Of a stretch of 23,355 nt of DNA, positions 9,738-23,355 are shown in pieces. The stretch is from positions 1 through 23,355 of IMG/VR virus record IMGVR_UViG_3300028176_000089; one strand, written 5' to 3'. The position numbers and the translations under genes were made by a program. How positions within the stretch are numbered: position 1 is the first letter of the stretch; each line of letters begins with the position of its first letter. This DNA comes from a virus. The notes beneath the pieces were generated by a model that was not told where the DNA came from, ran no database searches, and was given only the letters and a program-made list of their open reading frames with translations.

Positions 9738-9907
9738 GCTGCACCAACCCTTTCCGTGGCCCCATACTGGGCTATGTAATCAAGTAATGTTTCCGATGGC
9801 TCAAACCACTCCCCGTGCATGCGACTCTCCGCAAACCGCACGTGCAATGCTCTTTCGTCGCGTAACAGTCTCGTGCATAGTGGACGGGGCTGGACTCGAA
9901 CCAGCAT
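9734..9907 (-). pseudogene. C-terminal fragment resembling GIY-YIG/T5orf172 nuclease
   Basis: A 57-codon reading frame from ATG 9905-9907. The stretch DERALHVRFAESRMHGEWFE, then PSETLLDYIAQYGA, matches the conserved end of the GIY-YIG/T5orf172 (Mug113) family, where ER-x-LH-x-RFA leads to GEWF. The N-terminal GIY-YIG half is absent: upstream is the tRNA-like gene, which overlaps this frame by 27 bases, and no frame in 9952-10077 encodes the missing part. Its stop overlaps the ParB-like ATG (ATGA), so an internal start at 9818-9820 with GGAG upstream could still couple translation. Most likely a decayed nuclease gene; a functional short protein is less likely. Confidence 0.55.
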
Positions 9908-9951
9908 CTCCTCCCTTGTCAGGACGCCTCTACCAATTGGGCTACCCGTCC
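9881..9951 (-). tRNA. tRNA-like gene with an abnormal anticodon arm
   Basis: On the minus strand, 71 bases form a perfect 7-bp acceptor stem (GGACGGG with CCCGTCC, discriminator A), a D arm (GCC, a loop with AATTGGTAGA, GGC) and a perfect 5-bp T stem GCTGG/CCAGC with loop TTCGAGT. The anticodon arm is odd: TCCT pairs with AGGA around an 8-base loop (GACAAGGG), leaving only three bases before the T stem. Reading the T before GAC as position 33 would give anticodon GAC (Val) but breaks the stem. No CCA is encoded. It lies in the gap between modules and overlaps the nuclease fragment. It may be an unusual phage tRNA, a decayed one, or a tRNA mimic. Confidence 0.5.
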
Positions 9952-13287: not shown

Positions 13288-13685
13288 TTCTCCCCCTGGG
13301 GCGATGCCGAACCCATAAAGTCTCGCACCGACTTTGGGATCGGAGTACCGGCGGGTGGAATAACCCGGATGCACAACTCATTCTTTTGCCCAAACGCATG
13401 CGCCGCATCCAGATAGCGCCGCTGCAAGTGGACCGTTTTCCCGAGCCAGTCCGCAGGGTTCTTTCCCAGCAGCACTTTCAACATTCGGTAGTTGGTTCGA
13501 TTGAGAACCAGCCGCTTGGCCTTGTCCTTGAATCGAACCAGTGCCTTGTGAATCAATTTTCCTGACGCATCCGTTTCGGTGTCCGGGTCGGCCACGGCCT
13601 CGATGGTGACGGGGCACGAAGCACCCTCCGGCAAGTCGATTGCCTCTAAAAAGTGCCCCTCGTATCGTTCTTCCATTGCGTTCAT
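13284..13685 (-). CDS. Small phage protein of unknown function, coupled to the exonuclease
   Basis: A 133-residue protein. YEGHFLEAIDLPEGASCPV (8-26) starts a beta-rich domain, continuing with GKLIHKALVRFKDKAKRLVL and NYRMLKVLLGKNPADWLGKT and ending with an ELCIRVIPPA strand. Such a fold is compatible with a small OB-like or phage recombination accessory. The ATG at 13683-13685 overlaps the exonuclease stop (ATGA); a second ATG at 13674-13676 is possible. The tight coupling to the PDDEXK nuclease suggests a shared role in DNA recombination or end processing. No family is named with confidence. Confidence 0.65.
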   Translation of the reverse strand: MNAMEERYEGHFLEAIDLPEGASCPVTIEAVADPDTETDASGKLIHKALVRFKDKAKRLVLNRTNYRMLKVLLGKNPADWLGKTVHLQRRYLDAAHAFGQKNELCIRVIPPAGTPIPKSVRDFMGSASPQGEK

Positions 13686-14560
13686 TCCTGGTACTCCACA
13701 AGTTCCTCGTCTTCATCCTCCATGCACCACGCCGGCACGACCAACTCGTACAACTCCCCATTCGCCACTCCGGGGAAGTAGCCGGTCTTGATACACTCGG
13801 GAAGCCGCTCGATGATTGCCAGCCCGTGCCGTGCCCCCTGGTCCAGCACCGCGTCGGGAATAGGGATGAGTGCGATGTCGTAGGGCCGATGGTTCTCAAT
13901 GGCGAGAATGTAGACGGGGTATGGTTTCCCCGTACATTCTTGTAGCCACCGCTGATACAACCCCAATTTCAAGTCATAGTGAAACGCGAAAAAGTCGCGC
14001 CAGAACTTGTCCTTGTGAACGTCCTTGGTGGACTTCACATCGACAATGACTTGCTGCGAAGAAATCCAGTCCAGTCGCCCGCGGCACTGGATACCGAACT
14101 CCACGGAGAAGACCGTCACTTCCGCCTTGCCGGCCTCGATCAACGGCTTGATGTCGCTGCCGGGCCGGTCGCATTCCTCCACAAAATGCGCCCCGGCCTC
14201 GGCAAGCGATGCCATCTGTTCGGTTTTGAGAACTTCCTTGCCGTGTTCCCATGCGTCGGCAGCGAACTCCTCGTAGGCTTTCCCCGCCCGGCGCCCGTCC
14301 CACGAGGCGTACCGACCGGCGAACTCGCGCGGTTCGAGAATCATCGTGTGGATCGCCCGGCCCCACTGTTTGCTGGCCGAGTCGGTATCCGTGGCATTCC
14401 ACGCCGACAAGAGATGCAGCATGGACTTCATGCCGTGGGCGATGGTCGAGGGGTTCATGGCCGGCAGGGCTTTATACTCGTCCCAGCCAAGCCCCTCGTT
14501 GATTCCAGTGCGGCCCGGCCCCTTGGCCAGAACCTTGGAAATGTCGATAGCACTAGACAT
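13682..14560 (-). CDS. PDDEXK exonuclease, RecE/exodeoxyribonuclease VIII-like
   Basis: A 292-residue protein. PSTIAHGMKS (about 37-46) and a conserved H71 (GRAIHTMI) precede the catalytic core: E147 (AEVTVF), D164 (CRGRLDWI) and the D174-V-K176 pair (VIVDVKSTKD), with TKDVHKDKF and YDLKLGLYQRWL (about 196-207) after. This is the PDDEXK arrangement of RecE-type exonucleases, which resect double-stranded DNA for recombination. The ATG at 14558-14560 has GGAGG at five bases; an ATG four codons earlier lacks one. It is coupled to the small gene at 13284-13685. No annealing protein of the RecT/Erf kind is recognised nearby. Confidence 0.85.
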   Translation of the reverse strand: MSSAIDISKVLAKGPGRTGINEGLGWDEYKALPAMNPSTIAHGMKSMLHLLSAWNATDTDSASKQWGRAIHTMILEPREFAGRYASWDGRRAGKAYEEFAADAWEHGKEVLKTEQMASLAEAGAHFVEECDRPGSDIKPLIEAGKAEVTVFSVEFGIQCRGRLDWISSQQVIVDVKSTKDVHKDKFWRDFFAFHYDLKLGLYQRWLQECTGKPYPVYILAIENHRPYDIALIPIPDAVLDQGARHGLAIIERLPECIKTGYFPGVANGELYELVVPAWCMEDEDEELVEYQE

Positions 14561-14591
14561 AAGAGCCTCCATGACTCGCTATCAAGTGACG

Positions 14592-14858
14592 CTATCCGTC
14601 GATGAGCGATTTCAGATAGTACCCAAGGGCCGTCGTCAAGACGCCCACGCACGCCCACAGAACCTTGCTGCTGATTCGCGCCGTCGTTTCCAACTTCGCA
14701 AGTCGCTCAAGGATAGGGGGCTTTCCGTTCCCCATCACGATTGGCCGGCATTCTGCACAGTGGCCTATCATCACGTCCAGCTTCGACTCGATCCGCGATG
14801 CTGTCTCAAACACGCTGTCAATCCGCTCGTGAATCCGTTTGTTCTCTGCCGCTGTCAT
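14592..14858 (-). CDS. Coiled-coil plus single transmembrane protein, holin or XhlA-like
   Basis: An 88-residue protein. Residues 1-60 are an amphipathic helix region (RIHERIDSVFETASRIESKL, then ERLAKLETTAR) with a Cys-x2-Cys (CAEC), and residues about 63-83 are a membrane helix (SSKVLWACVGVLTTALGYYL). This layout is like XhlA or phage holin accessory proteins. The ATG at 14856-14858 has AAAGGA about eight bases upstream. It follows the thioredoxin/protease gene, which also ends with a membrane segment, behind a strong hairpin. Role in lysis is inferred only. Confidence 0.65.
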   Translation of the reverse strand: MTAAENKRIHERIDSVFETASRIESKLDVMIGHCAECRPIVMGNGKPPILERLAKLETTARISSKVLWACVGVLTTALGYYLKSLIDG

Positions 14859-14950: not shown

Positions 14951-14963
14951 TGTCACTGCGTCA
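14951..14963 (-). promoter_or_regulatory. 13-bp motif, copy 5, over the stop of the protease gene
   Basis: TGACGCAGTGACA on the minus strand, spanning the last codons and stop of the gene at 14953-16773, just before the hairpin. Confidence 0.4.
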
Positions 14964-16773
14964 GCGTTTGGACCGCATCAACGGCCGCTTTCGCCTGCGC
15001 CGCACCGGGAACCACCGCTATAGCCGCTTGGGTGGCGACGTGAAGGGCGGAATCCGCTTTGGCTTTCAGGGCCGACAAGTCGGGGAGCTGGGCCTTAACC
15101 TTCTCCTCGACGGTATCCACGCGACCGTGAATCTTGGCTAGCAGTTCCACCAGCTTGTCGTCAACGGTGTTGCTCGTCTTGGCGGCCAACTCTTGCAGCT
15201 TCGGAATAGCCTTATTGTTGATCTTGTGAATCAGCATCAACAACACCAATCCGATACCGACGATTGCCGCACAGAAGATGAGCAAGGCGACCTTGGCCTG
15301 GGTGAAGCCCTTGAACCGGACGGCCGCCGATTCGCTGTCCATGTTCTCCTCGGCATTCGCGGCCAATCGGCTGCTGATAGGTCCGCCGTGTTCGGCCAGC
15401 CAAGAGGCTTCCTTGTCCGTGAGCCGACCGATAGCCGTTTTCATCTTCGAGGCATCGTCAGCGGGCTTCTCAGCGGGGGGAGCTACCACGGGAGGAGGAG
15501 CTTGTCGTTGCTGATTGGCAATCTGAGCTTGAATAGCCTGTAGGTTTTCGTTCACCCGCTCCAACTGAGCGGCCATCGCCGCGTCTTTGGCAGCTTCGCC
15601 AGAACGGTACGGCAACAGGAAGTTCCCGCCGGGGGCAGTCTGTGCGCCCGCAGTAGGAGAACAACCGCCCGGCCCGCATCCACTCGCCGAATCGCCCGGT
15701 TGCTGGTACGGTTCCGGTCCAGGCATCGGGGGCGTTGGGGATCGCTGAATCGCCACGGGGACTAGCTTACCCATCGACTGCGGAACGATGTAGGCGCGTT
15801 GCTGTACCTTCGGTATCGCGGAGTCCAAAAGAAGATGCAGCCTGCCAGATTGGACGCAAACCACTACCTTGCCGTCCGTGCCCCAGAGAACACCCACGAG
15901 GCGACCGCGTTCGTTGAATACCGGGCCACCCGAATCACCCTGCCTCGCGTAGCCGGAAATCTCCATCCAATCGTCGGGGCCGTTCATCGCGGCATTCGAC
16001 CGCTTGTAAGACAGAAACCGGCCGCTATTTATCGCCAGCTTCCCATCCGGGCCGTAGCCGCACGATTCGAGCACAGCACCCTCGCGCAGCAGTGCCGCAT
16101 CGCCCATTTCAATCTCGGCGGGCTGGACATTGGGGGTGCCCTTCAACTCGATAACCGCACAGTCCCAAACCGCGTCAACCTTCAAGACGGTGCCATAGTA
16201 TGTCTTGCCGGTCACGGCCTCGACGATGATCTTCTTCGCATCCTTGACCACATGCCTGGCCGTCAGCACCACAATCTTTCCAGCCCAGCGAACGAGCGTA
16301 CCGCTGCCGATGCTTCGCGTTTGCCACTTGACGCCAGTGCCTTCCTGGCAGTAGATGCGCACGATAGCAGCACGAGAACCAGTAGGTTCGGCGTATCGCC
16401 ACGCTCGCGTAGGAATCCCCTGCTTGGCCGGGCCAGCATTGTTGGGTCGTCGCAACTTCTGCTTCAACCGCTCGATGCTCACCGTGCCAGATACTCGGTC
16501 GATTTCCCTGCCGCGTTCCACCACAATAAACGTCGGCACGGCGTCCACCCGATACCGTTGCGCCATCGCCCTATCGCAATCAATGTCAATCCGCTGCACG
16601 GCGTAGCCGTCCAATGCCAGTTGGTCCACGGTCGGTGCCATTTCTCGGCAGGGCGAACACCACGGTGCGTAGAAGTCCATCAGCACTGGGCCATCCTCGG
16701 CCAGCGCCGCCACGGCGCCGAACGAAAGCAGCAGCATCGCCAGAATCGCAAACAGTTTGCCATCGCGTCTCAT
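14953..16773 (-). CDS. Secreted thioredoxin/trypsin-like protease fusion with a membrane anchor
   Basis: A 606-residue protein. Residues 1-25 are a signal peptide. A thioredoxin domain follows, with the redox motif W38-C39-S-P-C42 and the cis-Pro P79 (VDAVPTF). A chymotrypsin-like serine protease (about 135-310) has H173 (LTARHVV), D203 (WDCAVIEL) and S280 (QGDSGGP), so the triad is complete. A Pro-rich linker, a coiled-coil stretch (about 395-420), a membrane helix at about 492-515 and an Ala-rich C-terminal helix complete it. It should be exported, with the enzymes outside the inner membrane. Putting a disulfide-active and a proteolytic domain in one phage-like protein is unusual. The ATG is at 16771-16773 with GAGGAGG seven bases upstream. 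Confidence 0.88.
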   Translation of the reverse strand: MRRDGKLFAILAMLLLSFGAVAALAEDGPVLMDFYAPWCSPCREMAPTVDQLALDGYAVQRIDIDCDRAMAQRYRVDAVPTFIVVERGREIDRVSGTVSIERLKQKLRRPNNAGPAKQGIPTRAWRYAEPTGSRAAIVRIYCQEGTGVKWQTRSIGSGTLVRWAGKIVVLTARHVVKDAKKIIVEAVTGKTYYGTVLKVDAVWDCAVIELKGTPNVQPAEIEMGDAALLREGAVLESCGYGPDGKLAINSGRFLSYKRSNAAMNGPDDWMEISGYARQGDSGGPVFNERGRLVGVLWGTDGKVVVCVQSGRLHLLLDSAIPKVQQRAYIVPQSMGKLVPVAIQRSPTPPMPGPEPYQQPGDSASGCGPGGCSPTAGAQTAPGGNFLLPYRSGEAAKDAAMAAQLERVNENLQAIQAQIANQQRQAPPPVVAPPAEKPADDASKMKTAIGRLTDKEASWLAEHGGPISSRLAANAEENMDSESAAVRFKGFTQAKVALLIFCAAIVGIGLVLLMLIHKINNKAIPKLQELAAKTSNTVDDKLVELLAKIHGRVDTVEEKVKAQLPDLSALKAKADSALHVATQAAIAVVPGAAQAKAAVDAVQTLTQ

Positions 16774-16833: not shown

Positions 16834-17022
16834 CTAGCCGTGAATCAGCTTGTACGCCGCAGCAGCAGCCGTGATAATCGCCGCGACAGAAGCACCGGCA
16901 ATTGACAGCCACTTCGCTAGATCGAACCACGTCTTATGCAGCAGGCCCAGGAACACCTTGGCTGGTACGGGCTTCTTCGTGTGGTGGTGCCCCACCCCTT
17001 TGACGCCAACTGTTTTAACCAT
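16834..17022 (-). CDS. Small membrane protein with a basic His-rich N-terminus
   Basis: A 62-residue protein. Residues 1-25 are basic with HHH at 12-14 and TKKPVPAK; residues about 35-58 are hydrophobic (LAKWLSIAGASVAAIITAAA), one membrane helix. It is likely a holin-like or inner-membrane partner of the envelope group. The ATG at 17020-17022 has AGGGAAAG immediately upstream and follows the papain-like stop by seven bases. A longer frame upstream of this start is a shadow. No named family. Confidence 0.6.
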   Translation of the reverse strand: MVKTVGVKGVGHHHTKKPVPAKVFLGLLHKTWFDLAKWLSIAGASVAAIITAAAAAYKLIHG

Positions 17023-17029
17023 CTTTCCC

Positions 17030-17662
17030 TCATGGGACGAGTGTGAACATTCCCTTGAAAAACGCTGACCGAGCCAAGTCACCCGGTTCGGTCGCACGAT
17101 CCGCGAGGTTCGGTACGGGGTCCACGCCTCCCGCTCGACAAGCAGCCGAAACGGCCGCAGAGCAGAACGGCATAGCGGTGGATTCCTTGTCGTCCACGTC
17201 GGCCCGGACGAACCACCGGATGATGGGGAGGTGAACCCACGACGCCTTGAACAACGTCCAGTAGCCATACGGGCGGCCGGTGATTTCGAGCATCGCATGG
17301 AGTGCCGCCTCCCGGTTGAACTTCCGCCGGCTGGCGTTGGCCTTGTACACGTCGCACGTCCCCGGATACTGGTTGACGACGTTGCTCAACAGTTGGGCTC
17401 GGCCGCCGTCGAACGTCATCTCAACGCACATGAGACGATTCCCCCACCAGCCAGCCATTGCCGCATGGCAGTATTCCGACCGCCCGCTGACGAGGAAAAG
17501 GCCCGTGTACCAGTCCCGCGACCGGAACAGCAGCACGTCTCCGGTCTTGATCTTCCCGCGAACTTCGTTGTACGACTTGGACGGCAGGACGGACTCGATG
17601 GACACGCCATCAGTCAACGAATCCCAGAAGTCGGCCGGAAGTTTCGGTTCTTGTTCTTGCAT
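17030..17662 (-). CDS. Permuted papain-like (YiiX/NlpC-P60 type) amidase or peptidase
   Basis: A 210-residue protein. KTGDVLLFRSRD (39-50) starts the core, H66 lies in YCHAAMAG, E81 in VEMTF, and the probable nucleophile C167 comes late, in MPFCSAAVSAACRAGG. His before Glu before a C-terminal Cys is the order of circularly permuted papain-fold enzymes such as YiiX. It may cleave peptidoglycan stem peptides or lipids/amide bonds in the envelope. There is no signal peptide. It sits between a secreted CAP protein and a small membrane protein. Start ATG 17660-17662 with GAGGGA close by. Confidence 0.75.
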   Translation of the reverse strand: MQEQEPKLPADFWDSLTDGVSIESVLPSKSYNEVRGKIKTGDVLLFRSRDWYTGLFLVSGRSEYCHAAMAGWWGNRLMCVEMTFDGGRAQLLSNVVNQYPGTCDVYKANASRRKFNREAALHAMLEITGRPYGYWTLFKASWVHLPIIRWFVRADVDDKESTAMPFCSAAVSAACRAGGVDPVPNLADRATEPGDLARSAFFKGMFTLVP

Positions 17663-17669
17663 GATTCCC

Positions 17670-18122
17670 TCAGTCAGCCGCGAGAATTACCCCGTACCAC
17701 GTTCCGTTGCGCCCCTGCGCCTCACCCGTTCCAATGAACCGATGGGCAACCCGCGCCGTCCGCCAGTGCCCCGGCGATTGCTTCCAGCACTTGACGTACT
17801 CGGCCCACCGCTCGTCCTTGCTGGCGCCGGACTGCCAGGCCCACGTCTCGGCACAAATCTCAGAGTATCCGCTGGCGGTTATCACCTCCCGTAGGCGGCC
17901 AACTCTTGCGGAAAAACCCTGATGACCCTGTGTCATGGATTGGGCCATGAACTCAGCGTGACCTTGCGCCTCGGCATCCATCGCGGCCGAGTGAGGCGAC
18001 CCCAGCGCCGGGCACGCGGGCAGCTTCTCTGCTGCCGACGCCACCTGCGCCAGCAGCAGGAAGAAGGCCACCACCAGGGCGGCAATTCCCGTCAGCAGTC
18101 CGGTCCAGGCCACAGTTTTCAT
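17670..18122 (-). CDS. Secreted CAP/SCP-domain protein
   Basis: A 150-residue protein. Residues 1-30 are a signal peptide (hydrophobic core ALVVAFFLLLAQVASA). The CAP domain contains HAEFMAQSMTQGHQGFSARV (55-74), AETWAWQ, and the signature SPGHWRTARV with VAHRFIGTGEAQGRNGTWYG at the end. CAP proteins bind lipids or act on surfaces; no specific substrate is visible. The start at 18120-18122 has GGAAG close by and is preceded by a good promoter and a copy of the 13-bp motif. Its stop is seven bases from the next ATG. Confidence 0.82.
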   Translation of the reverse strand: MKTVAWTGLLTGIAALVVAFFLLLAQVASAAEKLPACPALGSPHSAAMDAEAQGHAEFMAQSMTQGHQGFSARVGRLREVITASGYSEICAETWAWQSGASKDERWAEYVKCWKQSPGHWRTARVAHRFIGTGEAQGRNGTWYGVILAAD

Positions 18123-18250: not shown

Positions 18251-21200
18251 CTACTTGCCCAGCTTCCGCGACCCACGCGAATTAACGTCCGTGCGGATCG
18301 GATCGTAGAGGGCTTTCAGTTCCTCGTACTCGCGTTTGCCTTCGGGCGTGCGGTCGTTGAAGGCGGTTTTCATCTTACTGTCCCACTTCTTCCGCAACGC
18401 ACCCGCCACTTGGTTCTTTTCCTTGTCCGTGGCAAGGTTGTACGCCTCAATCGCTTGGCGCAGATTGGACCGAGCGAAGAAGGTTGGGAACCCCGGCGCC
18501 AAGTCCAGCTTCTTCTGTGCGGCGTGAATCTGCCGGCTGTTCGCGTATTCGCCAAGTGCCTTGGAATCCAGCCGCTTGGCGCCAGAATCCCGAGCCGCCT
18601 TGACGGCCTGGATGACCTTCGTAGCACGCTCCACGTCGGCCTTGGTGCGAGGCGGGCGGGGAACCTTGCCGAACTCGTCCAGTAAATACTGAGACGCCTC
18701 CGAGCGTGTATGGGCCGCTGGCACTGGTGTAATGCCGAAGAATGCTTGCGTCTGCCCCTTCCATCCAGCACCTTCCTCCGAAAGCTGCTGCATGTTCCGA
18801 ATGCTGAGGGGGACAAACTTGGACCCGATATGCTTCCCGTAGTCCAGCGTCTTTCGGCCAGCAGCTTGCAGCTTCCCTTCGCCGGCTACCGGGGTGGTAA
18901 TCTGTGTGCCGAAGTAGTCCGTCCCCTTGTAAATGTCCGCAATCGCTGCCAAGGCAGGATTCAGCGAGTGCTGGGCCAGGGCAATCGGGTGCGTCAACAG
19001 CGCGTACCAGTCCCTCTCCATACCGGGGGAAGCCACGCGGCTTGCTGTGCCGTCTGGGTTCATGTCACCCGTCCGCGGCTCGAAGAAGTCCTGCAACTCC
19101 GTTTCGTCGTCCCAAGGGAACTTGCCGGTCTTGAGGTACTGGTAGACCGTATTGAACAGCGCCGTTCCCGCCAGTACGGCCGGCAAGTGAACGATACTGC
19201 CGGTCAGTAAGTGCCGGCCGGAACCGGGCTCGCCTTTCACCGCGTCACGAGCCGCCATGTAGAGTGCGCCGAGATTGCCACCCTTCCAGCCGGGGGCAAA
19301 GAACACCAATTGCGCCAAGTCTTTCGAGACTCGGTTCATGTTGATGTTTTCCCAGTTCACTTGGCCGAAGCGGGCGTCCACGTCGCCGCGAATCTTTCGG
19401 TAGGCCACACTCCGCTGATCCTCGCTGGCCCCCTGGTGCGTCGCTTCCCACTCGGCTTGCAGGTCGAGAGCCACGCCCACCTTAATATCGCCCGCCGCCC
19501 GCATGACCGGCTTGGTGGTGAACTCGGGGGCCGACATGACAGCATGGAAGAATGCCTTGGCAGCTTCCGTACCCTTCTGGATTGCGTTCAAGTCGGGGGC
19601 CTTCATCTTGGCCCAATGCACCTTGGCTTTTTGCCAATCGCCAGTCATCGAGGCGGACAATAGGGCACCGCCTTTTTCCGACTCGGTGATTTGCTTTCTA
19701 CGCTCAGGTGTCAACTCAGAGTCGGGCTTGAGCCGGTCGGCCCGCCATTGTTCAGCCGGCGATCCCACCAACCCCGTGGTGGCCGAAAGAATATCTCGGC
19801 CGATAGTCAATGGCGATGCAAGGGCCAGTCCAGCAGCTTTGCCAGCCTGCCCGAAACTGCCCTTGCTCCACGGCTGCAACCCGTGTTCGATCATCGACCC
19901 AAGGTAAGTCTCGAACTTCTTGCGAGCCACGTTCGTCAAGTGGAATGCCGAGAGCGTTAGGCTCGATTGCAGCATCTTCTGCTGGACGAACCGCAACCCG
20001 CCCAGCCCGAGAGACAGCACGTTGCCAGCAACCCCACCCCGTTGCAGTTTGGCCCGCAACCCCTCCGACCCGTACCGCTCGACCGCTCGTGCCAATTCGT
20101 TAGGCAGCGCCCGATACCCCATGATGCGCATGCCGTGAATCGGAACCTCGTACTCACTCGACCCCAGCACCAGCGACGGCTGGATGTCCAGCAGCGGCTT
20201 GAGCTTGGGGTTCTCAGACAGGAACCGCACGAAGGCTTTGTAGACGTGGGGGGCAACCTTTTGGAACTCGCCGGGGGCGTGTAGCAATGCTTCCAGCATG
20301 ACGGCTTCTTTCTCGGCCCCCTTGCGCACATACTTCTTGTACGCATCGGTAGTCTCTTGGCCCTTGAATCGGGCGTCGGCCAAGTCCCGCATCTCCTTCT
20401 TGATCTGGACCCGCTCGGCAACGTCTTGGGGGTTCGTATCCTTTGGGTCGCCATTCATCCAGTCCAGCAATCCATAACGGGTTCCGATGATGTGCCCGAT
20501 CTCATGGAACAACACGGCCAACTGCCCATTCCGCTTGGTCACGACCTCCTTGTCCCCATAGGCCACGCCCCACTTCTTGCCCCCGAGATTCAGCACGCGG
20601 CTCATGTTGACGCCCATGCTGCGGCCGAACTCGTGAATCTGGTCGAACTGTACGGCGTCGTAGGCTTCTTTCATCGTCATGGTCGGCGGGCCGAAGATCG
20701 TGAACATCGACGATGGCATTCCGTTGACGATTGGAACGTGCCAGCCCGGCTCGGACTGCAAGCTGCTTTGCGTCTTAATCCAGCCCCGCTTGTCTGCGAA
20801 GTCGTACAGCCGCAAGTCGCGCAGGTAGTCCGTTGCGCCATCGTACCGAATCCGCTGCATTTCCAGCGGGTTGTCGGAAATTGGCTTGAGCCAACCGGCT
20901 TGCCGATCCAGTTCCTTGGCTTCCTCGTCACGCCCTTCGCGTCGGGCCTTCTCGGCTTTCTCCATCAGCGACTTACGCAACTCCCGGCCCGCCTTCATGC
21001 TGTCCAGCGTCCGCTCCATCATCATGCTTGGCTTGCCACCTTCGCGGTAGCCAGCGTTCGGACGGCCGGCGAATAACTCGGGCAGCGTCTTTTGTAGCCA
21101 CGATTGCCCTTCCTTGCTGCTACTGCCCTCGTAGCCGCGAGAGAAGTAGAACGGCGCCCGCTCATCTTCCGTCAGCTTGTCGGGCCGAATCTCATTGATC

Positions 21201-23355
21201 GCGTCCGCCCAGGCGGTCCATCGGTCCATCCACGCCTTGGCAACACGATCCAATTCTGGGGTAGCTTGGGCCTCGCCCTTCTCCCAGCGGTCGATGAACT
21301 GGTCGCGTTCTACTTGCGGCAACTTCCACATGGCCACTTCCGCTTGGCCAGTTTCGGCCTCGGCCTGGTCCATGCTCCGTTCTTTCTTGGCATTCTCGAA
21401 ATTGCGTTCCGCCTGGAACACCGGCAAGTCGGGCATCTCCAATGCCTTCTTGGCAGCCAGCAAGTGACTGGCCATGATCTTCTTCGGCGGTTCCGGGGGC
21501 TCGGGTGCGGCCGTGGTCGTATCCGCCGGGGGTGGCGGTGGATTGTTGCCCCGGTCGTCCAGGCGGCGGGCCGCGTACTTTCTGGCGTTATCTGCTATCG
21601 AACCGGGCTGCTCCTCAAAGGCCATCGCTGCATTGCCACCGGAACCACCGGGGGAACGGCGCGAGGGTGGAGAGGCGGGGCCATCGTCAAACCCCGGATC
21701 GTCGGGCGGGGCTGGTGGTGCGGGCGGGGTGGGTGCAGGTTTCTCGCCTTCCGTAAACCCAATATCACCCCTACCTAGCGCGACGCCCTTGCCCGACTCT
21801 GCCCCGCGGACAATCGCGTGCAAGTCTCGCATTCGGTTGCCGACGCGAGTGGACTGGTCCTGCTCGAATGGGATGTTTTTACCGAACAGCCAGTCAATCG
21901 TGACCGGCTTCTTAATGCCCAGCCGGGGAAGTCGGCCGATAGTCTGGTCCAACTTTGTTGCCGTCCACGGTACGTTGAGAACAACCATCGCCCGTTCCGG
22001 CATTGTCCCCGTGGTGTCGTGAAGCGACAGCCCTGTTCCGCCCTTGTCCATTGTAGCCAGGAGGATCGGCAGCTTGCCCGCCTTCCACTTGGACAGATAC
22101 CGAGTCGCCTGCGCGTCAGATTGGTCGCCCGTGTATAGGGCTAGTTTTTCTTCGCCAAAGGCTTCCTGAAATGCCTTGATCGTCGAGGGAATCTCATACT
22201 GGATTCCGCGGTCGTGCAGGACTGAGGCGATTTCCTCAATAAACGGCGCGAAAGGTGGGGGCGGCACAGGCTCCTTCATCGCCTTCGCCATCTTCTTTTC
22301 TTCGCGCCATGCGTCCATCATCCGACGAATCTGCGGGTAGTCGTAGAGCGGCCCGGTAGCGTCATCGCGCATCCGATACTTACCGATGTTCTTGTCGGCC
22401 TTGGTTTCCAGATATATGACCACCTGTTTGCCAGCGTCAACCAACTTGCGAACATGGTCAATGGCGAATGGGACTTTCGCTGATTCCAATATCCGCTTTG
22501 CCACGTTAATGCCGTGCATCTTGATCTTGCCGGCATTCTCGGACCCATCCTGGGCCTGGTCGTAAGCGCCCACGAGGTCATGGTAGCGATTGACCCATTC
22601 CAGCGGAACGTCATGCGGAACGAACTCGGTATAGACCATCCCTTCGGGAAGTTGCATGGGTTGTTGCGTCATCATGCCGCGTCGCTTGAACCACTCGTTT
22701 GCGGCCTTCTGCAACTCAACGCCGTAGTCGCCCATGTGAACCCAGTAGGGCGTCTCTACCTTCTCGCCATCGACCACTTTCGTTTTGACCTGGGCACCGT
22801 GCATCTTGGCCCACTCGACGAATCCGCCCTCGCTGTCAAACGCGCCGGTAGCATCGAGGAACTTGGCGTCAACGGGATTTCTAAACGGGGTGGCGCTTGC
22901 CAGGGACACGAACTTGGCGTCAGCCATTGCCTTCTGCGCCGACTCACCCCGCTGAGACTTTAGGTTGGTGATGTTCTGCGATTCGTCCAGAATGAGAATC
23001 GCATCCTTGGTGTCTACTCCACCTTCACCGAACTTCGCGTAAGAGACGAACTGCACCCGGTCGGCACCGAAATCGCGTAGGTCTTTCCGGTTTTGCTCGA
23101 TCAGGTCTTGCGAAGTGGTAACGTAGACAATCTTCTTCTCGCCAGAATCGAGAAGTTCTTTGATGAAGCCGCCCGTTACGAACGTCTTGCCCATACCGGG
23201 GTCACTGGCAAGAATATGGACGGGCTTGCCGGTGACGAATGCCCTATGCGTGCGGGCAACGTCGTCAATCTGGGCGTCTAAGATGGAATCGGGGATTCCG
23301 GCGGCGGAACCGCGTCGGATGAGTTCTTGCGTCGATAGCTGAACGTATTTATCAC
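18251..23355 (-). CDS. Giant polyvalent protein: SF2 helicase plus zincin metallopeptidase (5' end beyond window)
   Basis: 1700 codons are visible and the frame is open to the window edge, so the start is missing. An internal Met that is part of Walker A is not the start. Counting from the first visible codon: Walker A DPGMGKT (51-57), DESQ (123-126), SATP (153-156), ATMDKGGTGLSLHD (433-446) and QTIGRLPR (470-477) make a complete SF2 helicase. A Pro/Gly-rich linker spans about 540-625. A zincin motif HEIGH (950-954) is followed by a Glu-rich helix (KEAVMLEALLHAP). The remaining 700 residues are mostly helical, with hydrophobic stretches (SIVHLPAVLAGTALFNTVYQ). This layout matches phage polyvalent proteins thought to be packed in virions and injected with the DNA. 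It may protect or remodel incoming DNA and cleave host factors. Confidence 0.88.
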   Translation of the reverse strand, partial: DKYVQLSTQELIRRGSAAGIPDSILDAQIDDVARTHRAFVTGKPVHILASDPGMGKTFVTGGFIKELLDSGEKKIVYVTTSQDLIEQNRKDLRDFGADRVQFVSYAKFGEGGVDTKDAILILDESQNITNLKSQRGESAQKAMADAKFVSLASATPFRNPVDAKFLDATGAFDSEGGFVEWAKMHGAQVKTKVVDGEKVETPYWVHMGDYGVELQKAANEWFKRRGMMTQQPMQLPEGMVYTEFVPHDVPLEWVNRYHDLVGAYDQAQDGSENAGKIKMHGINVAKRILESAKVPFAIDHVRKLVDAGKQVVIYLETKADKNIGKYRMRDDATGPLYDYPQIRRMMDAWREEKKMAKAMKEPVPPPPFAPFIEEIASVLHDRGIQYEIPSTIKAFQEAFGEEKLALYTGDQSDAQATRYLSKWKAGKLPILLATMDKGGTGLSLHDTTGTMPERAMVVLNVPWTATKLDQTIGRLPRLGIKKPVTIDWLFGKNIPFEQDQSTRVGNRMRDLHAIVRGAESGKGVALGRGDIGFTEGEKPAPTPPAPPAPPDDPGFDDGPASPPSRRSPGGSGGNAAMAFEEQPGSIADNARKYAARRLDDRGNNPPPPPADTTTAAPEPPEPPKKIMASHLLAAKKALEMPDLPVFQAERNFENAKKERSMDQAEAETGQAEVAMWKLPQVERDQFIDRWEKGEAQATPELDRVAKAWMDRWTAWADAINEIRPDKLTEDERAPFYFSRGYEGSSSKEGQSWLQKTLPELFAGRPNAGYREGGKPSMMMERTLDSMKAGRELRKSLMEKAEKARREGRDEEAKELDRQAGWLKPISDNPLEMQRIRYDGATDYLRDLRLYDFADKRGWIKTQSSLQSEPGWHVPIVNGMPSSMFTIFGPPTMTMKEAYDAVQFDQIHEFGRSMGVNMSRVLNLGGKKWGVAYGDKEVVTKRNGQLAVLFHEIGHIIGTRYGLLDWMNGDPKDTNPQDVAERVQIKKEMRDLADARFKGQETTDAYKKYVRKGAEKEAVMLEALLHAPGEFQKVAPHVYKAFVRFLSENPKLKPLLDIQPSLVLGSSEYEVPIHGMRIMGYRALPNELARAVERYGSEGLRAKLQRGGVAGNVLSLGLGGLRFVQQKMLQSSLTLSAFHLTNVARKKFETYLGSMIEHGLQPWSKGSFGQAGKAAGLALASPLTIGRDILSATTGLVGSPAEQWRADRLKPDSELTPERRKQITESEKGGALLSASMTGDWQKAKVHWAKMKAPDLNAIQKGTEAAKAFFHAVMSAPEFTTKPVMRAAGDIKVGVALDLQAEWEATHQGASEDQRSVAYRKIRGDVDARFGQVNWENINMNRVSKDLAQLVFFAPGWKGGNLGALYMAARDAVKGEPGSGRHLLTGSIVHLPAVLAGTALFNTVYQYLKTGKFPWDDETELQDFFEPRTGDMNPDGTASRVASPGMERDWYALLTHPIALAQHSLNPALAAIADIYKGTDYFGTQITTPVAGEGKLQAAGRKTLDYGKHIGSKFVPLSIRNMQQLSEEGAGWKGQTQAFFGITPVPAAHTRSEASQYLLDEFGKVPRPPRTKADVERATKVIQAVKAARDSGAKRLDSKALGEYANSRQIHAAQKKLDLAPGFPTFFARSNLRQAIEAYNLATDKEKNQVAGALRKKWDSKMKTAFNDRTPEGKREYEELKALYDPIRTDVNSRGSRKLGK

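Follow-up and report, generated by a model that had tools for sequence, protein, structure and literature searches.

What use might a phage have for a thioredoxin and a serine protease fused in one protein that appears to be exported and anchored in a membrane? The question is posed by P0001, the product of a gene on the minus strand of a 23,355-base stretch of DNA, hereafter the window. The window is a complete IMG/VR virus record, in keeping with the initial annotation, which had called the genome phage-like.

The fused protein

The open reading frame starts with an ATG at window position 16773, preceded by TGAGGAGGATGTTCG, and its GC content (0.70 at third codon positions vs 0.47 at second positions) follows the pattern expected of a genuine gene. 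Its features are the following, with the basis of each call in brackets.

14953 to 16773, minus strand: P0001, 606 aa, exported thioredoxin, HtrA-fold serine protease and near-C-terminal membrane helix
16699 to 16773, minus strand: signal-peptide-like N-terminus, residues 1-25 (sequence, hydropathy)
16450 to 16701, minus strand: thioredoxin domain, residues 25-108 (Pfam PF00085; AlphaFold2 pLDDT ~95)
15799 to 16413, minus strand: serine protease domain, residues 121-325, with H174, D204 and S281 (Pfam PF13365; DegS-type fold)
15661 to 15678, minus strand: CGPGGC motif at residues 366-371, within the disordered linker (sequence)
15229 to 15306, minus strand: membrane helix, about residues 490-515, within a predicted helix at 488-532 (hydropathy, AlphaFold2)

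A fused, exported thioredoxin and protease occupying exactly 14953-16773, as the initial annotation had it, is borne out, both Pfam matches lying far beyond chance. The thioredoxin family (PF00085) is matched at E = 1.8e-18, with 66.9 bits against a cut-off of 23.5; the active site is W38-C39-S-P-C42 (WCSPC, residues 38-42), its CxxC is kept in all nine phage fusions, and P0001 is a thioredoxin by profile score and active site alike. Residues 156-295 match Trypsin_2 (PF13365) at E = 7.1e-21, with 75.9 bits against a cut-off of 27.6, and all 24 of the phage-type proteases aligned retain the triad H174/D204/S281; score and triad together place P0001 among trypsin-like peptidases. The His-Asp-Ser triad had thus been read correctly as intact, with the serine numbered one residue too low: residue 280 is the aspartate of GDSGG. 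In an AlphaFold2 model built from 39 aligned sequences, the thioredoxin and protease domains are both predicted to fold (pLDDT ~95 for each), the linker at residues 328-390 is disordered, and long helices span residues 388-423, 488-532 and 539-587.

The signal peptide and the membrane helix are called from hydropathy and the AlphaFold2 model. P0001 has one hydrophobic helix at each side, N-terminal and C-terminal; the signal-like N-terminus terminates in ALA/ED, and the most hydrophobic stretch is residues 497-515 (Kyte-Doolittle mean 3.1). The C-terminal membrane helix proposed earlier is predicted here too, although not at the extreme C-terminus, since about 90 residues, including the helical tail at 539-587, lie beyond it.

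P0001 resembles the DegS/HtrA family in protease fold, triad, envelope location and membrane anchoring, and PDZ-less DegS structures are the top Foldseek matches of its protease (E = 2e-15). It differs in having its anchor on the C-terminal side and an added thioredoxin, in that no PDZ domain was found with Pfam, and in scoring 59.0 bits against the HtrA/Do subfamily (TIGR02037), far below the NCBIfam cut-off of 416.2. Like MarP (Rv3671c), the membrane-anchored periplasmic serine protease that partners the NlpC/P60-superfamily enzyme RipA, it would work from a membrane anchor; MarP, however, has four N-terminal helices and no thioredoxin, and P0001, in which the four helices are absent, matches the family (NF033740) at E = 3.6e-13 with 49.3 bits against a cut-off of 250. 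The likeness to PHROG 11383 (unknown function; E = 2e-14) and PHROG 9683 (protease; E = 1e-12) is confined to residues 138-299, in the protease part.

A redox switch inside the protease was considered and rejected, no clear cysteine pair emerging across the 24 sequences. Cys142 and Cys238 occur in 9/9 fused proteases and Cys205 in 8/9, and Cys142 in 5/15 unfused ones; the unfused protease of locus L239 keeps Cys142 and Cys205 and has no Cys238.

Gene neighbourhood and conservation of the cassette

The gene order in the window is a CAP-like exported protein, a YiiX-like enzyme, a small membrane protein, P0001, a gene termed cc and an exonuclease VIII gene, and the first four are separated by gaps of 7, 7 and 60 bases. 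The neighbours are:

18251 to 23194, minus strand: large helicase-containing (polyvalent-like) protein, whose start may be cut by the end of the record
17670 to 18122, minus strand: CAP/SCP-like protein of 150 aa, exported (sub-threshold match to Pfam CAP, E = 0.0057)
17030 to 17662, minus strand: YiiX-type permuted papain-like (NlpC/P60, C92) enzyme, 210 aa, without signal peptide (family A8, AlphaFold2, Foldseek)
16834 to 17022, minus strand: small membrane protein of 62 aa with a single hydrophobic helix (hydropathy)
14592 to 14858, minus strand: cc, 88 aa, coiled coil and weak C-terminal membrane segment (home-made HMM cc)
13682 to 14572, minus strand: exonuclease VIII-like gene, directly after the cassette, likewise in the sister phage (context)

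The YiiX-like protein shares with YaeF/YiiX (peptidase C92) the fold and the catalytic His/Cys/Tyr pattern, and differs in its own TEPxDLARS motif and in matching no Pfam or NCBIfam family. Its model (pLDDT 86) finds 3kw0 at 3e-8 and YiiX (2if6) at 2e-4 with Foldseek; D42, H66, Y132 and C167 are invariant in 20/20 relatives (family A8), and the permuted papain fold with its His...Cys order (H66, C167) assigns it to peptidase C92. No pro-domain or signal peptide is in sight. The cc protein is holin-like in size and layout, with a hydropathy of only 1.3, and its sequence is one of the four seeds of the cc HMM. The 62-residue membrane protein did not match sTM (family A5), the small membrane proteins of the relatives. 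The CAP/SCP-like protein has a homologue (38% identity) in the corresponding region of L262, the sister phage.

Elsewhere in the window, a tandem array of about ten copies of a 24-base unit (805-1052) lies within a minus-strand open reading frame (737-1393) and encodes repeats of the ATLYGNAT type. ARAGORN places a tRNA-Cys with the unusual anticodon ACA at 9880-9951; the call may be false or the gene degenerate.

Single-protein scans of viral contigs with P0001 returned one thioredoxin-only locus in one scan and none in another, and in phage and plasmid collections no record held a single place covering 80% of P0001; the relatives of the cassette were reached through the YiiX neighbour and then by alignments. 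Profiles built from those alignments define a set of 21 strong phage-type proteases (E < 1e-40), in which L239/L262 (one contig) and L003/L006/L242 are each counted once and L226/L227 and L259/L260 are close pairs. The domain pair does occur elsewhere: the fusion is known from nine proteins of phages or prophages, P0001 included, and Pirellulales chromosomes have a fusion of their own. The eight besides P0001 come from viral loci L003, L005, L237, L259, L260 and L261 and from Pirellulales genomes (L225, L229), and over aligned parts P0001 is 56% identical to L003 and 48% to L005. Twelve strong relatives (L226, L227, L228, L230, L231, L239, L241, L263, L264, L265, L266, L268) have no thioredoxin; their protease and context are those of the fusions. 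The well-delimited members of the set show both a signal-like sequence and a membrane helix.

A YiiX-like gene adjoins the protease in 20 of the 21 loci, the exception being L005, which has 302 bp upstream. An sTM or cc gene follows the protease in 16 (not in L261, L263, L264, L266 and L268), and a terminase in 13, or 12 of the 16 loci with at least 3.5 kb downstream; the loci without one are the window, L260, L239 and L264, and the calls in L003, L259 and L265 are weak profile matches. Seeds for the cc, sTM and YiiX profiles came from within the set, and the seed members match by construction; with the same profiles, 95 thioredoxin-only viral loci gave no YiiX, no sTM and no cc. Because it accompanies at least two terminase types by Pfam (GpA and Terminase_6C), the cassette behaves as a function-bound module would.

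In the sister phage L262 the same cassette, without thioredoxin, occupies the same place, in the order polyvalent protein, YiiX, CAP, HNH, thioredoxin-less protease, sTM, cc, exonuclease VIII, ParB, helicase and primase-polymerase; identity to the window is 43% for the exonuclease VIII, 59% for the helicase and 52% for the primase-polymerase. Since the window has no terminase, the late-gene position of P0001 rests on kinship. With Pfam, PHROGs and NCBIfam, no holin family was matched by the small membrane proteins and no lysin family by the YiiX-type enzyme. Scans of the phage genomes G588 (35 proteins, Pfam) and G590 (32 proteins, Pfam; PHROGs, among 25 of 32 families) revealed no other lysin, holin or spanin family; both encode their own head-maturation proteases (S49; phrog_133/phrog_4523). 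G590 has a YiiX-like gene near both ends of its 43.4 kb contig (L333, L335), with slightly different starts; the contig may represent a circular genome that is nearly complete, or two related phages joined together. The unit that needs explanation is thus the whole cassette, in which thioredoxin is optional, rather than a single odd fusion.

An optional thioredoxin and the origin of the fusion

Because thioredoxin is absent from 12 of the 21 proteases, it is not essential. In most of these relatives a motif of the form CGPWGC, CGPRGC, CPGGGC or CEGPGC takes its place directly behind the signal peptide. Such CGPxGC/CPGGxC-type motifs are seen at the N-termini of L226, L227, L228, L230, L231, L239, L263, L264 and L268, and in the window at residues 366-371, in the linker; they are possibly covalent anchors to a cysteine-rich wall. 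Weaker relatives among the 80 loci listed have other N-terminal cysteine arrangements or collagen-like tails. The exported phage proteases of L004, L271, L275 and L276 have collagen-like GxY repeats behind the catalytic domain, and the phage proteases of L270, L272, L273, L281, L313, L318 and L325 have N-termini with paired CxxC motifs resembling a DnaJ zinc finger.

Thioredoxin also occurs as a gene of its own. Locus L244 has, in order, a papain-like gene (Peptidase_C92, E = 9e-5, under the cut-off), a protease with a membrane helix, sTM, a separate thioredoxin and cc; its upstream gene had no BLASTP match to the window's 1647-residue protein. Nine loci have a separate thioredoxin adjoining an sTM-like gene (L244, L245, L247-L249, L252-L255), these thioredoxins being exported or lipoprotein-like. 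In eight of them (L245, L247, L248, L249, L252, L253, L254 and L255) the sTM-like gene precedes the thioredoxin gene, and in all of these except L255 a terminase of the type seen in L249, assigned there to GpA by Pfam, comes next; the thioredoxins of L245, L249 and L253 have lipoprotein-like starts. In an unrelated phage (L002), a thioredoxin gene lies between Holin_6 and GH25 lysozyme genes and the terminase. From L244, the L245-L255 loci and L002 we conclude that thioredoxin accompanies lysis-type genes, whether fused or separate.

Three side observations concern thioredoxin-like proteins. A lipoprotein-like thioredoxin stands behind the sTM-like gene and ahead of the terminase in L245, L248, L249 and L253. 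L245 and L249 also encode, ahead of sTM, an exported protein with a C-terminal hydrophobic helix that could have a cysteine-free thioredoxin-like fold. In an ssRNA phage record (L342:154-564, NC_073930.1), the first open reading frame begins as a thioredoxin with WCVPC, which may reflect either a chimeric assembly or a genuine gain of the domain.

The exported thioredoxin-protease fusion on Pirellulales chromosomes is present in 229 of 246 genomes of that order and in 21 of 294 phylum-wide (e.g. L048, L044; L187-L212, L220-L222). It shares with P0001 the signal peptide, the N-terminal thioredoxin and the HtrA-type serine protease, arranged in the same sequence. It differs in its active site, GRSGG rather than GDSGG in 27 of the 29 loci looked at; in that no strong membrane helix follows the protease (hydropathy at most 1.65, vs 1.87-2.84 in seven phage-type loci); and in belonging to a separate lineage. 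L211 and L212 have no such active-site motif, the usual motifs having seemingly been lost. In a protease tree of 58 rows, into which 20 of the 29 host-type loci passed by profile and length filter (nine were dropped), the 20 host rows form a single 100/100 group on a long stem, free of phage rows, and the phage fusions nest among thioredoxin-less phage proteases. A recent insertion from the host, which would have undercut the initial annotation, is accordingly rejected as unlikely, the Pirellulales fusion belonging to another protease lineage.

At least three gain or loss changes are needed under the starred branches of that tree, so thioredoxin was gained or lost repeatedly, and the phage protease lineage itself appears to be old, having taken up or dropped thioredoxin several times. 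In a thioredoxin tree of 83 rows (bacterial rows limited to 14 and viral free-standing ones to 22, free-standing planctomycete thioredoxins being left out), eight of the nine phage domains fall with the host-fusion thioredoxins, apart from the free-standing ones (91/96 branch), although there are few columns and many forks are unresolved. The thioredoxin was perhaps drawn from the host's fusion.

Host, proposed role and rival explanations

Among 296 genomes of Pirellulales, the order to which L048/G005 belongs, 7 have phage-type proteases, and several of these copies are on contigs that also bear housekeeping or chromosomal genes (judged by eye from translations). The phage-type A4 profile found none in 392 planctomycete genomes phylum-wide, where four candidates were scored in each, and none in 198 Bacteroidota genomes, where few were; neither sample included a positive control, and both negatives are weak. 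After the phylum-wide result, the link to a planctomycete host rests on one order. Passages of PMC3035269 describe the planctomycete envelope as proline- and cysteine-rich, disulfide-stabilised protein, and a similar statement occurs in PMC2754498. Kinship of sequence suggests that the phage of the window probably infects planctomycete bacteria. Peptidoglycan was later found in planctomycetes too, which renders the picture of a protein wall incomplete.

Our preferred reading, held tentatively and with not quite even confidence, is that P0001 is the exported, anchored effector of a lysis-type cassette of Pirellulales phages, for which we infer a spanin-like role in breaking the envelope. It draws on gene position, export, anchoring, the host envelope and the lack of other lysin, holin or spanin family matches in G588 and G590. 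The initial annotation had already proposed, as one option, lysis through the opening and cutting of disulfide-stabilised host surface proteins, an idea that the cassette, the planctomycete host lineage and the disulfide-rich envelope described for planctomycetes all strengthen.

Sec export would place the thioredoxin and the protease in the periplasm, with the C-terminal helix as their tether. The small membrane proteins would act as holins late in infection and give the YiiX-like enzyme access to the envelope, the thioredoxin would reduce disulfides in the cysteine-rich envelope proteins of the host, and the protease would cut the chains so loosened and clear the final obstacle to the escape of the phage. 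In other Gram-negative hosts that task falls to spanins. Where the domains are unfused, the fused thioredoxin may have a substitute in a thioredoxin encoded separately or in a CGPxGC motif. Spanins and the lambda lysis cassette offer the nearest layout, in which an anchored periplasmic protein accompanies a hydrolase and small membrane proteins close to the terminase, and the present cassette is alike in each respect; P0001, however, has protease and redox domains where spanins have a coiled-coil fusogen. Neither a spanin or holin family match nor an i-spanin/o-spanin architecture was found (Pfam, PHROGs), catalytic domains and a C-terminal anchor being present instead.

Several points count against a role in lysis. 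A periplasmic thioredoxin requires an electron supply (DsbD/CcdA-like) and is otherwise oxidised; no holin family was matched, the hydropathy of cc is weak, and 5 of 21 loci have no sTM or cc. Nor are YiiX-type enzymes established peptidoglycan endolysins: their structures, according to passages of PMC3142127, argue for amidases with lipid-like or lipid-linked amide substrates. The wider claim, that planctomycete phages lyse or leave their hosts by a redox-proteolytic cassette with an exchangeable reducing module, in which an anchored thioredoxin-protease replaces spanins and there is perhaps no classical peptidoglycan endolysin, we consider doubtful.

The protease might instead serve as an activator, clipping or switching on the YiiX-like enzyme or a host cell-wall or lipid hydrolase, while the thioredoxin tunes a disulfide, either the protease's own or one of its target. 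This is raised by the closest biochemical precedent, mycobacterial MarP, which activates the NlpC/P60 endopeptidase RipA by cleaving it in the periplasm (passages of PMC6628586); MarP is also the best NCBIfam match of the thioredoxin-less L226 (8.4e-15), the papain-like gene is the protease's neighbour in all but one of the 21 loci, and Cys142 and Cys238 are both present in every fused protease, with Cys142 in a third of the unfused. We judge it unlikely, however, since the MarP score of P0001 falls far under the cut-off, P0001 lacks MarP's four N-terminal helices, no pro-domain or signal peptide is visible in the YiiX-like protein, and the retention of Cys142 is confounded by kinship.

Envelope quality control during infection, by a DegS/DegP combined with a disulfide-isomerase chaperone, as the host's own fusion may provide, would account for the same architecture in a near-universal Pirellulales gene and for the grouping of most phage thioredoxin domains with those of the host fusion, a grouping weakly resolved over few columns. 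The host fusions differ, though, in their GRSGG, their lack of a strong post-protease helix and their protease lineage, and this reading leaves the cassette unexplained; we regard it as distinctly improbable. A moron that destroys or alters receptor surface proteins, for superinfection exclusion or host-surface remodelling in lysogeny, would suit an exported protease and the several copies in bacterial contigs that look like prophages, but a moron would not usually be linked so consistently to a YiiX-like enzyme, small membrane proteins and terminase. Superinfection exclusion, the other role initially proposed, gains nothing from the neighbourhood or the relatives, and we think a moron very unlikely. 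Serine proteases do serve in phage head maturation, and the gene is often near terminase; a virion or head-maturation protease with a signal-like N-terminus arisen by chance is nevertheless scarcely credible, given that G588 and G590 have such proteases of their own and that signal-like sequence and membrane helix go together in the well-delimited members.

Among the titles and abstracts retrieved on lysis by planctomycete phages, on thioredoxin-trypsin fusions of phages or planctomycetes, on thioredoxins of lysis cassettes, and on YiiX and periplasmic proteases in phages, none describes such a cassette, and how phages escape from planctomycetes, with their unusual envelope, is apparently undescribed. 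A compact cassette that recurs in many phages and Pirellulales contigs makes that question testable. If the wider claim of a redox-proteolytic exit is true, the cassette would be a lysis tool of a further kind beside endolysin, holin and spanin; if our preferred reading of P0001 as a lysis effector is right, nature would have supplied in it a set of enzymes with which disulfide-stabilised protein shells can be opened.
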